Origin: Natrinema ejinorense | GTDB taxonomy: Archaea; Halobacteriota; Halobacteria; Halobacteriales; Natrialbaceae | Direction: 5' to 3' | Length of the DNA stretch: 64,000 bases | Assembly: GCF_002494345.1 (NCBI RefSeq) | Contig: NZ_NXNI01000001.1 | Coordinates: 2,294,001 to 2,358,000, forward strand | Shown here: positions 20,263 to 25,557 of the stretch, in pieces | Position numbering within the stretch: position 1 is the stretch's first letter | Layout: each line of letters begins with the position of its first letter | Position numbers and translations under genes: made by a program | The notes under the pieces: model-generated | Told to the model about the DNA's origin: nothing | What the model saw: the letters and a program-made list of their open reading frames with translations, nothing else | Databases searched by the model: none

Positions 20263-20745
20263 TTAGAAGCCGAAGTTAGCAGCGGACGCAGTGCCAACCT
20301 GGGAGTTCGTGTTGGACGCCTCGGCCGACTGGCTGATGTTCTGCTCTATCGTCTGGTCACCAGTGGTGCCGATCTCGACGCTGATGCCATCTCCGTTATC
20401 GTTGTTATCGTTGACGTTATCGGTCGAAGCCCCACTGTCGGCTGCGCTCCCGAGTGGGAACGGGAACTCGTTATCTTCATTGAAGCTGTCGTCGACAGTG
20501 ACCTCGAATCCAGTTGCCTCCTGCTCGGCAGTCTGGTTGGCGTTCTGGTCGATGTCGTTAACCTGAGCGACCTCTTGGTTCTGGACGACAGCTGCTGCCG
20601 CGAGCTGATTATCGTCATCGTCGTCGACGTCTGCTGTGTCAGCCGTATCGGCGGTACCACTTGCTGCTGCCGTTCCGGCGAAGCCAACCAGCAGCAGGCT
20701 GGCGACGAGTACGAGCGTCAGGATCGTGTTCCGTGTCACATTCAT
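20263..20745 (-). CDS. Secreted Q/N-repeat protein B (curlin-like)
   Basis: A 160-aa secreted paralog of the protein at 18933. The signal peptide TLVLVASLLLVGFAG then TAAAS is very similar to that of protein A. A short Asp run leads to core 1, VVQNQEVAQVNDIDQNANQ then TAEQEATGFEV, and an Asn/Asp-rich spacer to core 2, GDQTIEQNISQSAEASNTNSQ, ending SAANFGF. The terminal aromatic and the regular Q-x-N-x-Q spacing fit a short stackable subunit. It is divergently arranged to the large repeat gene at 21447. Function inferred only: surface fibre, matrix or adhesion component. Confidence 0.8.
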   Translation of the reverse strand: MNVTRNTILTLVLVASLLLVGFAGTAAASGTADTADTADVDDDDDNQLAAAAVVQNQEVAQVNDIDQNANQTAEQEATGFEVTVDDSFNEDNEFPFPLGSAADSGASTDNVNDNNDNGDGISVEIGTTGDQTIEQNISQSAEASNTNSQVGTASAANFGF

Positions 20746-21446: not shown

Positions 21447-23000
21447 ATGAGAAACAAGACAACGAGACGCTCACGAACTACGACACTCCTTATGGCCTGT
21501 ATGGTCGTCTTGTCGATGGTAGCGGCCGGTGTGCCGACGGCCGCGGCAGGCGGCGACGGCGACCTCGAGAACGGAACGGTCCACGCGCTCGAGGATGGCG
21601 AGGAGCTGTACCTGGTCTTCGGAGCGGACCTCGGCGAGCAATCGCTCGAAGACTATATCGACGAGCACGCGGAGGGCGAAGCCGACTCCGCGGCCGAAGT
21701 CATCCAGTACCAAGACGTCGATCAAGTCAACATCAACGAGCAAGGCTCGGCGGTGTCGATATCGATCGACGGTGGCGAGGCGACCGCCATTCAGGAGGCA
21801 AACCAGTACAACGACAACGAACAGCGCGGGTCGGCCAACGCCGAGAGTCGCCTCCAGAGCGCACAAACGCAGTTCGAAGACGTCGGCGACGTCAACATCA
21901 TCATCGGCAACGGCGGCGATCAACAGTTCGACGGCTGGGGGGTCAAAGACAAGAAGGGTGACGACGAGACGATCACCCAGGAGGCCCTCGCTTCCGTGAC
22001 CCAGTCACAGGAGGTCGCTCAGGTCAACTACAACAACCAGAGTACCGCCTTCGCCCTCGCCGTCGACGACAGCGAGGCGACCGCCGTCCAGCAGTCCTAC
22101 CAGCGCAACGAGAACCTCCAGGAAGGGGTCGCCAACGCGTCCAACGTCTACCTCGGCGACGGCGAGTTCGGCCACAAGAAGGACAAGTCAGGCGACCACG
22201 GTCCGTCCACCGGCCAGGACGCTGACGCGACGGTCACGCAACAACAGGACGTCGAACAGGCGAACCTCAACGAACAGCGCGGTGCCGTCGCCATCGCGAT
22301 CGGCGAGAACAGCACCGCCACGGCGATCCAGTTCACCGACCAGAGCAACCTCAACGAACAGCTCGGGAGTGCCGACGCCACGAACCTGCTGGCCTCGAGC
22401 GTCGGGATGAACGTCGCGACCGCGGGCAACGTGAGCAGTGACGTCCTCTCGACGCACACCGACACGCACAAGCCCGACAAGAAGAGCGACGACGGGGGCG
22501 AGCAGACGGCGACCGCCGGCGTGGCCCAAGAGCAGGGGGTCGAGCAGCGAAACATCAACCTGCAAAACAGCGCCATGGCGATCGCACAGAACGGGAGCGA
22601 TGCCACGGCCATCCAGCTGGCCTACCAGCAAAACTACAACGCTCAGATCGCCTACGCCGACGCACTCAACGTCTACGCGAGTCCGGGCTACGTCTCCGAC
22701 GACATCACCCGAACCTCGAGTACGACGGCGACGATCGACGGCAATGCGGGCGACTCCAACCCCGGCATGTCGTACGATTACGCCGGCAACGCCACGCAGA
22801 CGAACGACGGCGATCAGACGGCGAGCGCGGCGATCGAACAACACCAGTTCATCACCCAGGAGAACATCAACGAGCAACACACCTCCGTCGCGGTCGCCGA
22901 AGACGGTGGGAGTGCCGGTAGCTCGCAGATCACCATGCAGGAGAACGAGAACATCCAGTTCACGTCCGTCGCCTCGACGAACACCTGGGTCGGCGCATAA
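21447..23000 (+). CDS. Large secreted Q/N-repeat protein C with five curlin-like cores
   Basis: A 517-aa protein with a signal peptide (TTTLLMACMVVLSMVAAGV, cleavage near AAAGG) and five cores of about 52 residues at roughly 83-135, 182-233, 260-314, 355-411 and 460-513, joined by polar, Asp/Lys/Gly-rich linkers. Each core has two halves. The first is like VTQQQDVEQANLNEQ then an A-x-A strand; the second is like ATAIQFTDQSNLNEQ then a short Ala-rich strand. Gln and Asn recur at fixed spacing, as in ladder-forming beta-solenoids and curlin. The linkers contain Asn-x-Ser/Thr sites that could be glycosylated. No membrane anchor or sorting signal is seen at the C-terminus, which ends TNTWVGA. Likely an extracellular fibre or scaffold; unproven. 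Confidence 0.82.
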   Translation: MRNKTTRRSRTTTLLMACMVVLSMVAAGVPTAAAGGDGDLENGTVHALEDGEELYLVFGADLGEQSLEDYIDEHAEGEADSAAEVIQYQDVDQVNINEQGSAVSISIDGGEATAIQEANQYNDNEQRGSANAESRLQSAQTQFEDVGDVNIIIGNGGDQQFDGWGVKDKKGDDETITQEALASVTQSQEVAQVNYNNQSTAFALAVDDSEATAVQQSYQRNENLQEGVANASNVYLGDGEFGHKKDKSGDHGPSTGQDADATVTQQQDVEQANLNEQRGAVAIAIGENSTATAIQFTDQSNLNEQLGSADATNLLASSVGMNVATAGNVSSDVLSTHTDTHKPDKKSDDGGEQTATAGVAQEQGVEQRNINLQNSAMAIAQNGSDATAIQLAYQQNYNAQIAYADALNVYASPGYVSDDITRTSSTTATIDGNAGDSNPGMSYDYAGNATQTNDGDQTASAAIEQHQFITQENINEQHTSVAVAEDGGSAGSSQITMQENENIQFTSVASTNTWVGA

Positions 23001-23149: not shown

Positions 23150-23923
23150 CTACGAACCGTCGGAGCCGTCCGTTCCTGTCGTCTCCGTCGCCGTGTCGTC
23201 GTCACGATGCTCGGCGAGTGCCTCGTCGATGGTCAACTCGCCGGCAGCGACTCGACGGGCGAGTAGCTCGTCGATCGCCCGATTGTGCTCGCTCTCCTCG
23301 CGGGAGCGATCCTTGATCACCTGAATCTCGCCGTCCGTCGGTTCGATCTCGCGTGCATCGACGACGTCTCCCTCGAGTCGGGCGATGTTGACCGCGGCGA
23401 GGACGTCACCCATCCCTCGGGCACCCGTCCCGAGATACGGGGTCGTCCCGGTTTCGTCGACGAGTTCGACCGTCACGTCGTCGAGTTCGTTGACGAGTTT
23501 CGCGCTCTCGAGGCGGGAGCCGTCGCCGATTCGGACGATCGGCGACGGGGCGTCGGCGGCTTCGCGTTGGATCACGTCGACGGCGTCGCCGAGGGGGACC
23601 TGAAAGGCGGCGACGATCGTCTCGCCAGTGAGCACGGCGATGCCGGGCCGTTGGCCCGGGTCGACGCCGATGACCGTCCGGCCGCCGTTGCCCCGAACCG
23701 CGGCCAGTGCCTGATCGACCGCACGCCGTGGCTCGTCCGGATCGGCGACGACCGTCGTTGCGTCCGCGAACGTCTCGGCGTTGTCGGCCCCGGTGACGAC
23801 GACGGTGGCTCGCTCGGGCAACTCCTCGTCGGGCTCGAGGGTCGTAAACGCCGTTCCGCGCTCGCGAAGTTCGTTGACGACGCCGTGGTATACCTCGAAG
23901 TCTGCCGTGGCGACGACGATCAC
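23150..23923 (-). CDS. RNase H-fold (RuvC/RuvX-like) conserved euryarchaeal protein
   Basis: A 257-aa protein. The N-terminal half (VIVVATADFEVYHGVVNEL, then TLEPDEELPERATVVVTG) looks Rossmann-like. The middle (TVIGVDPGQRPGIAVLTG) is the first strand-turn of an RNase H fold with an Asp, as in Holliday-junction resolvase relatives, followed by an acidic region and a helical tail rich in Arg/Glu (DRSREESEHNRAIDELLARRVA). I choose the GTG at 23923 as start: a GTTTATT box lies 25-31 nt upstream, and the family begins at this residue; an upstream in-frame extension has no support. A nucleic-acid role is plausible but not established. Confidence 0.78.
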   Translation of the reverse strand: MIVVATADFEVYHGVVNELRERGTAFTTLEPDEELPERATVVVTGADNAETFADATTVVADPDEPRRAVDQALAAVRGNGGRTVIGVDPGQRPGIAVLTGETIVAAFQVPLGDAVDVIQREAADAPSPIVRIGDGSRLESAKLVNELDDVTVELVDETGTTPYLGTGARGMGDVLAAVNIARLEGDVVDAREIEPTDGEIQVIKDRSREESEHNRAIDELLARRVAAGELTIDEALAEHRDDDTATETTGTDGSDGS

Positions 23924-23947
23924 AGGTCGACCTTCGGAGCGACGGGG

Positions 23948-23954
23948 AATAAAC
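23948..23954 (-). promoter_or_regulatory. TATA box supporting the GTG start at 23923
   Basis: Read on the minus strand, GTTTATT lies 25-31 nt before the GTG. This is the leaderless-promoter spacing and the main reason for rejecting the longer upstream frame. Confidence 0.6.
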
Positions 23955-24048
23955 GTACGCGAACTCCGTTCTGATCGGTGGGAAATGGTATCCGTGCGCC
24001 GACAGGAGAGCGACTCGGTAATCGTCCTACGGGTTTCCCCCAACCCCG

Positions 24049-24130
24049 ATAGTAGCAACTGAAACGATGTACACACTGATCGCAACGCTGTCGTGCGATC
24101 AGGTGCGCAATGACTGTCAGTTGCTACTAT
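24049..24130. mobile_element. 82-bp MITE-like element
   Basis: Perfect 14-bp terminal inverted repeats, ATAGTAGCAACTGA (24049-24062) and TCAGTTGCTACTAT (24117-24130), flank a 54-bp centre. The centre itself holds a perfect 9-bp stem, CTGATCGCA with TGCGATCAG. The size and nested palindromes fit a miniature inverted-repeat transposable element; I recall similar repeats in other haloarchaea but cannot check. It supplies the last codons and the stop of the adjacent hydrolase gene. A strong bidirectional terminator is the alternative reading. Confidence 0.6.
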
Positions 24131-24935
24131 AGTCGGTGACCCACTCGAGAACGTCCTGTCGACAATCGAGCAACGTCCCGAGATGGTCGCTGTCCCTGCT
24201 TATCAGGGTACCGTGCGTATCCTCGAGGAATGTCTCGACGGGAGAGAGTGGTGTGTTCTCGTCTTGGACTCCGTGCCACGCGCGGACTGGAATGTCGGAT
24301 CGAACCGAGTCGAACGAACTGTCGGCGAACATCCGGGTCTCGCGCATAACGGCGTCTTCACCCTGTCGGACTCCTTCATGAAAGTCGTCTGCGACCGCCG
24401 TCCGCACAGGGTCAGACACCGACCGGTCGGTGTATTGCTGGACGACCGCGTCCGGCCCGCGGACGCGGGCGATCGACTTGGAGAGTCGAAAGAGGATGCG
24501 CAGCGCGAACGGGACCCTCGAGAGCGTGGTGAGTTTGTTCTCGGCGGGTGGAACGACGGTACTGACCAGTCCGATTTGGCTCGTTCGGTCGGCCGTCGCT
24601 GCTGCGAGTGCAAATGGGCCTCCACCGGAGAATCCGACGAACGGGACCCGATCGATCGACTCGGCGTCGAGCAGTTCGTGCAGGTCGTCCTGCCAGTCGT
24701 TCCAGGTCCAGTCATGCGGTGGCGACGTCGATCGCCCGTACCCGGGCCGATCCGGAACGACGAGCTGGATGTCGTTCCGAGCGGCAGCATCGGAACACAC
24801 TGCTGCGAATAATCGAGAGCCAGGTGTCCCGTGGTGAACGATGACAGGATTCCCCTGCGGGTCGCCGCCGATAGCGTAGGAGAGCGTTCGTCCGTCCGAG
24901 AGCGTACATTCAGCGGTTGACAGTTCCGATGTCAT
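24117..24935 (-). CDS. Alpha/beta-hydrolase
   Basis: A 272-aa cytoplasmic hydrolase. HHGTPGSR is the oxyanion-hole HG region, GFSGGGPFALA the nucleophile elbow with catalytic Ser, DENTPLSPVE carries the acid residue and DSDHLG the catalytic His. PDRPGYGRS is typical of the family. The substrate is unknown (ester, epoxide or amide). The last residues (YSSN and stop) are encoded by the inverted repeat of the MITE-like element at 24049-24130, so the natural C-terminus may have been replaced by a few residues. The catalytic set is complete, so activity may be kept. The ATG at 24935 fits the family start. Confidence 0.88.
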   Translation of the reverse strand: MTSELSTAECTLSDGRTLSYAIGGDPQGNPVIVHHGTPGSRLFAAVCSDAAARNDIQLVVPDRPGYGRSTSPPHDWTWNDWQDDLHELLDAESIDRVPFVGFSGGGPFALAAATADRTSQIGLVSTVVPPAENKLTTLSRVPFALRILFRLSKSIARVRGPDAVVQQYTDRSVSDPVRTAVADDFHEGVRQGEDAVMRETRMFADSSFDSVRSDIPVRAWHGVQDENTPLSPVETFLEDTHGTLISRDSDHLGTLLDCRQDVLEWVTDYSSN

Positions 24936-24993: not shown

Positions 24994-25557
24994 CTAGTCA
25001 ACAGAATAGACGCAGGTTGAGGGCCGGTCTCCGAACCAGTCGTTCGACGAGCGGTGCTGCTCGGCGGATACCGGCACGCCGAGCGGTTTGCTCGGCGAAC
25101 CAGTACCCGGCCGGTATTCCTGCACCCAGAGCGTGCCGAGACTCGCGACGTTGATCGACAGGACGTTCTCGAGCGTGCTGATCGTCACGTAGCCCCCTTC
25201 TTGAACCCAGATGTCCCGGAGTTCGTCCACGAGGGCTTCGATATCCGCCGTCCCAGTCGGAACGAACACGAGTGCACCGTACTCCCGCCGGCACGTTTCG
25301 TCGGTGAGAAAATACTCGACATCGGACGCCGCGAGCATCGTCTCGACGGCGTTTCGTTTCCCGACGGGGAGGCGATCTGCAACAGGCGCATCTCTCAGCG
25401 CCCTGGCAGTCACGTTACCAAACCGTTCACAACCAACGACGGCGAGACCCCGACCCGCGTGCGGGATCGGTCGTAGTCGAAGCGTGGAGCCGATGTCTCG
25501 TACATCCGACACGCCGGAACGATCGAGCCGGGTCGGTTCCGGGGCCTTTTTGCGCAT
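24994..25557 (-). CDS. Haloarchaeal protein of unknown function
   Basis: A 187-aa soluble protein. The middle reads RLPVGKRNAVETMLAASDVEYFLTDETCRREYGALVFVP, followed by VDELRDIWVQEGGYVTISTLENVLSIN, suggesting an alpha/beta domain of one or two repeats. I do not recognise the family. The ATG at 25555-25557 is only 18 nt from the divergent radB start, with no TATA box at the right place, so a downstream GTG near 25512 (before SDVRDIGSTLRL) may be the true start. No transmembrane or signal segment is seen. Confidence 0.6.
   Translation of the reverse strand: MRKKAPEPTRLDRSGVSDVRDIGSTLRLRPIPHAGRGLAVVGCERFGNVTARALRDAPVADRLPVGKRNAVETMLAASDVEYFLTDETCRREYGALVFVPTGTADIEALVDELRDIWVQEGGYVTISTLENVLSINVASLGTLWVQEYRPGTGSPSKPLGVPVSAEQHRSSNDWFGDRPSTCVYSVD
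25546..25552 (+). promoter_or_regulatory. Promoter element of radB
   Basis: A T-rich CCTTTTT box lies about 26 nt before the radB GTG and inside the 5' part of the divergent gene as annotated. This supports a leaderless radB transcript and casts doubt on the divergent gene's longest start. Confidence 0.45.

Follow-up and report, generated by a model that had tools for sequence, protein, structure and literature searches.

A dispersed 80-bp inverted-repeat element of haloarchaea at the stop codon of an alpha/beta-hydrolase gene

Why does an alpha/beta-hydrolase gene of Natrinema ejinorense end inside a hairpin? In the 64,000-nucleotide stretch of DNA analysed here (the window), the stop codon of this gene lies within an 82-bp near-palindrome that occupies positions 24049-24130. 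The initial annotation, made from the sequence alone, offered two readings: either a mobile mini-element had replaced the original 3' end of the gene, or a strong bidirectional terminator had been placed at the stop. The architecture on which both readings were built, an 82-bp span with a perfect 14-bp terminal inverted repeat and an inner 9-bp stem, is present as described (Table 1), and the open reading frame does end in YSSN followed by TGA within the repeat. The fold of the 24049-24130 segment is far beyond chance, with energies of -24.2 kcal/mol as DNA (z -5.65) and -42.9 kcal/mol as RNA (z -8.15), neither of which was reached by any of 200 shuffles. Rfam covariance models gave no match at E values up to 1 when run against positions 23900-24300, and assignment to an Rfam structured RNA family was rejected on that result. 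The mobile unit is 80 bp in length, the outer A and T of the 82 bp being parts of the flanking TA duplication. It is a short unit that lacks a transposase gene and has no space for one.

Table 1 Features of the hydrolase gene and of the inverted-repeat element at its 3' end (window coordinates).
Feature	Position	Strand	Evidence or remark
80-bp mobile unit (MITE copy), TAGTAG...CTACTA	24050-24129		82-bp gain at empty sites of other copies (80 bp plus TA); 40 scored copies in the same genome
Duplicated target TA, right copy	24130-24131		56 of 69 copies are flanked by TA left and right
Target duplication, left copy, here GA (probable T to G change)	24048-24049		GA on the left with TA on the right in 4 of 69 copies
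Outer stem, left arm	24049-24064	+	First 14 bases, ATAGTAGCAACTGA (24049-24062), pair perfectly with TCAGTTGCTACTAT (24117-24130)
Outer stem, right arm	24115-24130	+	Pairs with the left arm
Inner 9-bp stem, left arm, CTGATCGCA	24076-24084	+	Fold and copy alignment
Inner 9-bp stem, right arm, TGCGATCAG	24094-24102	+	Fold and copy alignment
Alpha/beta-hydrolase ORF, 272 aa	24117-24935	-	Element and its TA contain the stop and the final four codons (24117-24131); Pfam Abhydrolase_1, E 8.3e-12

A search of the 4.48-Mb genome with a 101-bp query gave 40 scored copies (of 91 candidates), located on contigs C1 and C2 and having 83-100% identity over the matched parts. Six further, more diverged copies were present in stretches fetched around arm matches, and another 18 copies with E < 1e-9, full or partial, came from 20 stretches fetched around the remaining arm matches, 15 of which contained copies. 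The search for other copies that the initial annotation had suggested thus returned a total of at least 64 copies of the 80-bp element in this genome, decayed copies included, rather than a single one. Across the class Halobacteria the element was detected in 89 of 292 genomes and in 26 of 77 genera (E 1e-6). It is also carried by 44 of 72,556 public plasmid records; among the plasmid matches listed, 30 of 40 fell where no gene is annotated, and seven more records lacked annotation. None of 50,697 phage records matched the element at E 1e-5, and a phage origin was rejected on this count.

The copies have a common insertion context. Directly outside the 82 bp, 25 of 30 copies from the N. ejinorense genome had the dinucleotide CT on the left and 26 of the 30 had AG on the right, and the bases further out were unrelated. 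Of 69 copies, 56 had a TA at each end of the 80-bp unit. Not counted among the 69 are the tandem copies L096-L099, the partial or diverged copies L085 and L087, the L088 locus, which is where L002 lies together with a fragment, and L086, for which no row was obtained. CTAG was the insertion context of 42 of the 56 copies having both TAs, versus 17 of 1200 TA sites across the window, where CTAG is a rare sequence. Empty sites were sought in G091, a genome of the same species, by comparison of eight pairs, five of which were informative. After removal of 82 bp, the alignments at copies L006, L008 and L014 were ungapped at the junction and the G091 sites read CTAG, CTAG and ATAG, respectively, the only gaps in the L014 alignment being further from the junction. 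L013 and L011 also aligned ungapped at the junction, yet G091 has TC where TA was expected. Comparison with G091 was uninformative for L002, L007 and another match of L013, as was comparison with a second genome, G010, for L006 and L008. An empty site for L004 was found in a Halostella pelagica plasmid (CP040680), which is 82 bp shorter at this place, reads GTAG and likewise aligns ungapped at the junction. The filled sites of L006, L008, L014 and L004 have two TAs where their empty counterparts have one; together with the 82-bp difference this means that an insertion adds the 80-bp unit and one extra TA. Hence, the 80-bp element duplicates a TA target, and the insertions that have empty G091 sites are either younger than the split of the two strains or were lost in G091. 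The 24049-24130 sequence is a copy of this dispersed mobile element and not a terminator. Two loci have tandem head-to-tail pairs (L096 571-732 and L099 610-771) with one common CTATAG and a period of 80 bp, an arrangement that is not predicted by plain insertion with TA duplication.

What did the insertion do to the hydrolase? The gene in the window ends GAC TAT AGT AGC AAC TGA, that is, in YSSN followed by TGA. In G010 the element is absent from the orthologous gene (85% protein identity), which ends ...DVLEWVTE followed by TAG, and a more distant ortholog (60%) ends ...LAWLAETA, also without YSSN. Removal of the element plus one TA from the window sequence would restore GAC TAG and would thereby place the original stop codon within a CTAG, read with the limits that the left TA is now GA and that G010 is too diverged to the left of the element for a base-by-base empty site. 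Judged from these sequences, no coding sequence seems to have been lost; the TAG stop was probably split and four residues (YSSN) were appended. The comparison of C-termini proposed in the initial annotation therefore gave two orthologs that stop earlier and lack YSSN. A mobile mini-element at the 3' end is borne out by the copies, the empty sites, the TA duplication and the orthologs, but the word "replaced" was slightly too strong for a stop codon that was split with the addition of four residues. YSSN is also the end of in-frame open frames of at least 60 codons (frames, not confirmed genes) at copies L003, L006, L007, L008, L013 and L017 of the same genome. A longer frame at L013 (378 codons, by eye an acyl-CoA dehydrogenase) has its stop instead in the CTA TAG at the edge of the element. 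When CT and AG flanks were added, 51 to 54 of 54 copies had a stop in each of the six frames, a raw count, uncontrolled by shuffling, from which we draw no conclusion as to a special design.

Several neighboring frames in the window were also noted. The 187-aa ORF beside the hydrolase (24994-25557, minus strand) looks internally deleted relative to a 430-aa membrane protein found at the same place in G010 (L063 11-1303): by eye, the segment that finishes with GYVTIS continues, three residues later, with VLSINVASLGTLWVQ. The ORFs at 20263-20745 (minus strand) and 21447-23000 (plus strand) are divergent, apparently secreted and composed of Q/N-rich repeat units, and look curlin-like by eye; the latter ORF had no Pfam match at E 0.001.

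The question then becomes what moves the element and why it is found at stop codons. We consider it probable that the family consists of MITEs mobilized in trans by a DDE transposase of the IS630/Tc1-mariner type with CTAG as target and TA as the duplicated sequence, that stop codons are hit as a side effect, and that the fold matters. Such a transposase would act in trans to cut the 80-bp unit at its ends, and the same enzyme would paste the unit into a CTAG, the TA being duplicated upon repair. CTAG often forms stop codons. At the copies from L002 to L030 having both TAs and CTAG, an ORF of 60 codons or more terminates at 6 of 21 sites, versus 10 of 40 control CTAGs (p 0.77), and a preference for stop codons beyond that for CTAG was rejected on this comparison. 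The stop codon link would thus be a by-product of the CTAG target, since CTAG is rare here and 10 of the 40 control sites also end such frames. The folded form, be it a cruciform, a single strand or an RNA hairpin, would matter to the element, or would be better tolerated by the host, because both stems show paired changes (see below).

Duplication of TA is a mark of the IS630/Tc1-mariner group, and IS630 itself has a CTAG preference. Of 125 genomes from the family to which N. ejinorense belongs, 75 carry DDE_3 (IS630-family) genes, the remnant in N. ejinorense itself being counted. When the first 30 DDE_3 loci were searched with only TA required at both ends, the tip TATAGTA was found in 7. 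With TATAGTA required at both ends, 32 of 50 loci gave elements 1040-1080 bp long, and 27 of these 32 had a CTAG target. At 10 of 15 end positions the base most often seen in the IS630-type elements is also that of the 80-bp element. The search pattern itself fixed the first five of these 10, as well as the flanking TA; outside the required tip the agreement is 5 of 10. The CTAG preference and the end tip that the element has in common with the IS630 family therefore make an IS630/Tc1-mariner-type transposase the likely mobilizer. Two complete IS630-family elements were seen inside copies of the 80-bp element: one at L117 1363-2503, which by eye has TA on both sides where there is room for one, and another at about 797-2009 of L138, which has TA on both sides and lies in a copy with extra loop sequence.

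The initial annotation had also proposed a search for a full-length transposon with the same ends. This part of its proposal drew a blank, in that our limited scans gave only IS630-family elements with partly similar ends and none whose ends matched in full. In the N. ejinorense genome a check of the arms in 20 stretches, of which 15 contained copies and 5 nothing convincing, showed no arm pair bounding a larger transposon. A scan of genome contigs for the arm plus A or T gave 16 loci but no exact partner; 10 had both arms within 85-123 bases and 6 had a single arm, four of the six being non-haloarchaeal bacterial records. At 17 other DDE_3 loci the ends could not be convincingly defined. As for the enzyme, the only DDE_3 sequence found in the N. 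ejinorense genome was a single 80-aa remnant, with no intact IS630 transposase and no IS630-type ends within two mismatches.

These results bear on a rival that is rather unlikely but retains some weight: the repeat is mobile but is moved by a transposase other than IS630, either of another family that duplicates the 2-bp TA or one that was domesticated or lost, and the likeness to IS630 is confined to tip and target. Such an enzyme would fit the lack of an intact IS630 in the N. ejinorense genome and the 5 of 10 agreement outside the required tip. No DDE_3 match was found in 20 of the 58 element-positive genomes of the family, and given this number the mobilizer may be another enzyme or may have been lost. 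Against this rival stand the CTAG preference common to the element (42 of 56) and IS630 (27 of 32), the TATAGTA tip in 7 of 30 loci even when only TA was required, and the distribution of DDE_3, which is found in 38 of 58 element-positive genomes (the N. ejinorense remnant counted) versus 5 of 16 listed element-negative genomes (Fisher p 0.02, kinship uncorrected). This co-occurrence is weak.

The fold was examined in an alignment of 54 distinct 82-base copies, which left out identical rows, copies of other lengths, L030 and several tandem or partial copies. Over these copies 92.9% of the cells of the 35-pair hairpin were paired, versus 90.5% upon shuffling and 26-41% for slid structures. Doubly changed cells numbered 42, versus 5-13 for slid structures and a shuffled mean of 15.2 that comes from shuffles leaving the kinship among copies in place (0 of 500 reached 42). 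Columns 9/74 supply 19 of these 42 cells by an A-T to C-G change that may be one event. Pairs with a change on both sides numbered 13, versus a shuffled mean of 4.9 but 12 when the structure was slid by -1, which makes this count a poor discriminator. RNAalifold predicts 19 of the 35 hairpin pairs. A single enzyme that binds both arms would be expected to keep them matched; the paired changes of the inner helix (columns 20/62, 26/55, 29/53, 30/52, 32/50 and 36/46) suggest, without proof, that the fold itself matters.

It is improbable, though worth stating, that the 80-bp unit is kept folded by selection and spreads in genomes without a detectable IS630 transposase, an unrecognized or host enzyme reading the hairpin or cruciform and inserting it into the rare CTAG. 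Because CTAG often forms stop codons, genes would then be left intact by many insertions or would gain no more than a few residues, as with YSSN. Spread via a folded single strand, in the manner of REP or IS200/IS605 elements and with the flanking TA as a target motif rather than a duplication, would accommodate the paired changes of both stems and the tandem copies of period 80 with one common CTATAG. We regard it as very unlikely, because L006, L008, L014 and L004 have one TA when empty versus two when filled with a gain of 82 bp, and because, according to PMC3119063, IS605-type elements and the PATEs have neither terminal inverted repeats nor target duplications. In the 80-bp unit, unlike PATEs and IS605-type elements, the terminal inverted repeats extend to the very ends.

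The terminator that the initial annotation had offered as its alternative found no support: the hairpin has no T-run after it on either strand, for which an intrinsic terminator was rejected, the terminator scan gave no terminator-like site, and according to the ORF list the next gene after the hydrolase has the same direction, such that the two do not converge. If the sequence were a bidirectional terminator of transcription, or a hairpin that stabilizes RNA, in place of a transposon, this would agree with the strong RNA fold and with the paired changes in the stems. Such a role is very unlikely in view of the missing terminator signals, the presence or absence of the 82 bp between strains and the 6 of 21 CTAG insertion sites at which an ORF of 60 codons or more terminates, a share not above that of the controls, and as the origin of the repeat it is contradicted by the empty sites.

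Reading the repeat as a mobile element has consequences for annotation. The YSSN tail of the window hydrolase is explained as foreign and element-derived. We suggest as a rule that an ORF ending TAT AGT AGC NNC TGA within such a palindrome be taken to have an inserted, non-ancestral C-terminus. An insertion rule is now attached to a repeat that is common in haloarchaea, and the presence of young copies in a genome without intact transposase makes the question of what moves the element directly testable.

The family is a MITE of known kind that was itself not found in the literature searched, which consisted mostly of open papers, with supplements and ISfinder outside its scope. Among published kinds, the SMR elements of Haloquadratum and an IS630-related MITE of Methanosarcina mazei (both below) come nearest to it. 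It is also akin to the haloarchaeal IS630-family elements of about 1055 bp seen in our data, which have the same CTAG preference, inverted ends and ends beginning TAGTA, but differ in encoding a DDE_3 transposase, in length and at 5 of 15 end positions. ISY100, another member of the IS630 family, is described as inserting into TA with TA duplication in vitro (PMC2170065), a duplication like that made by the 80-bp element. In Methanosarcina mazei an IS630-related MITE with ISMma9 as its partner is listed as 89 bp, with 5 copies, IR 16 and DR 0 (Table 4 of PMC3852290); it resembles the present family in size, inverted repeats, archaeal host and proposed IS630 partner, but differs in the DR of 0 and the few copies given in that table, and the two are set apart by description only. 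The SMR elements of Haloquadratum walsbyi are reported as 80-110 bp in length, without target duplication, with ends unrelated to known transposons and with the mobilizer unknown, the A type being mostly within PATEs and IS605-type elements (PMC3119063). They are like the 80-bp family in size, prominent inverted repeats, many copies and a haloarchaeal host, whereas the 80-bp family duplicates TA, a distinction made from the published description and not from sequence. The PATEs of Haloquadratum are likewise transposase-free palindromic mobile elements, but that same description gives them no terminal inverted repeats and groups them with IS605-type elements (PMC3119063). Finally, MITEPsy1 of Pseudomonas syringae, a MITE of 100 nt, is similar in that its insertion sites are CTAG or YTAA, but it is reported to duplicate four bases and is assigned, with a question mark, to IS5 (PMC3189936).
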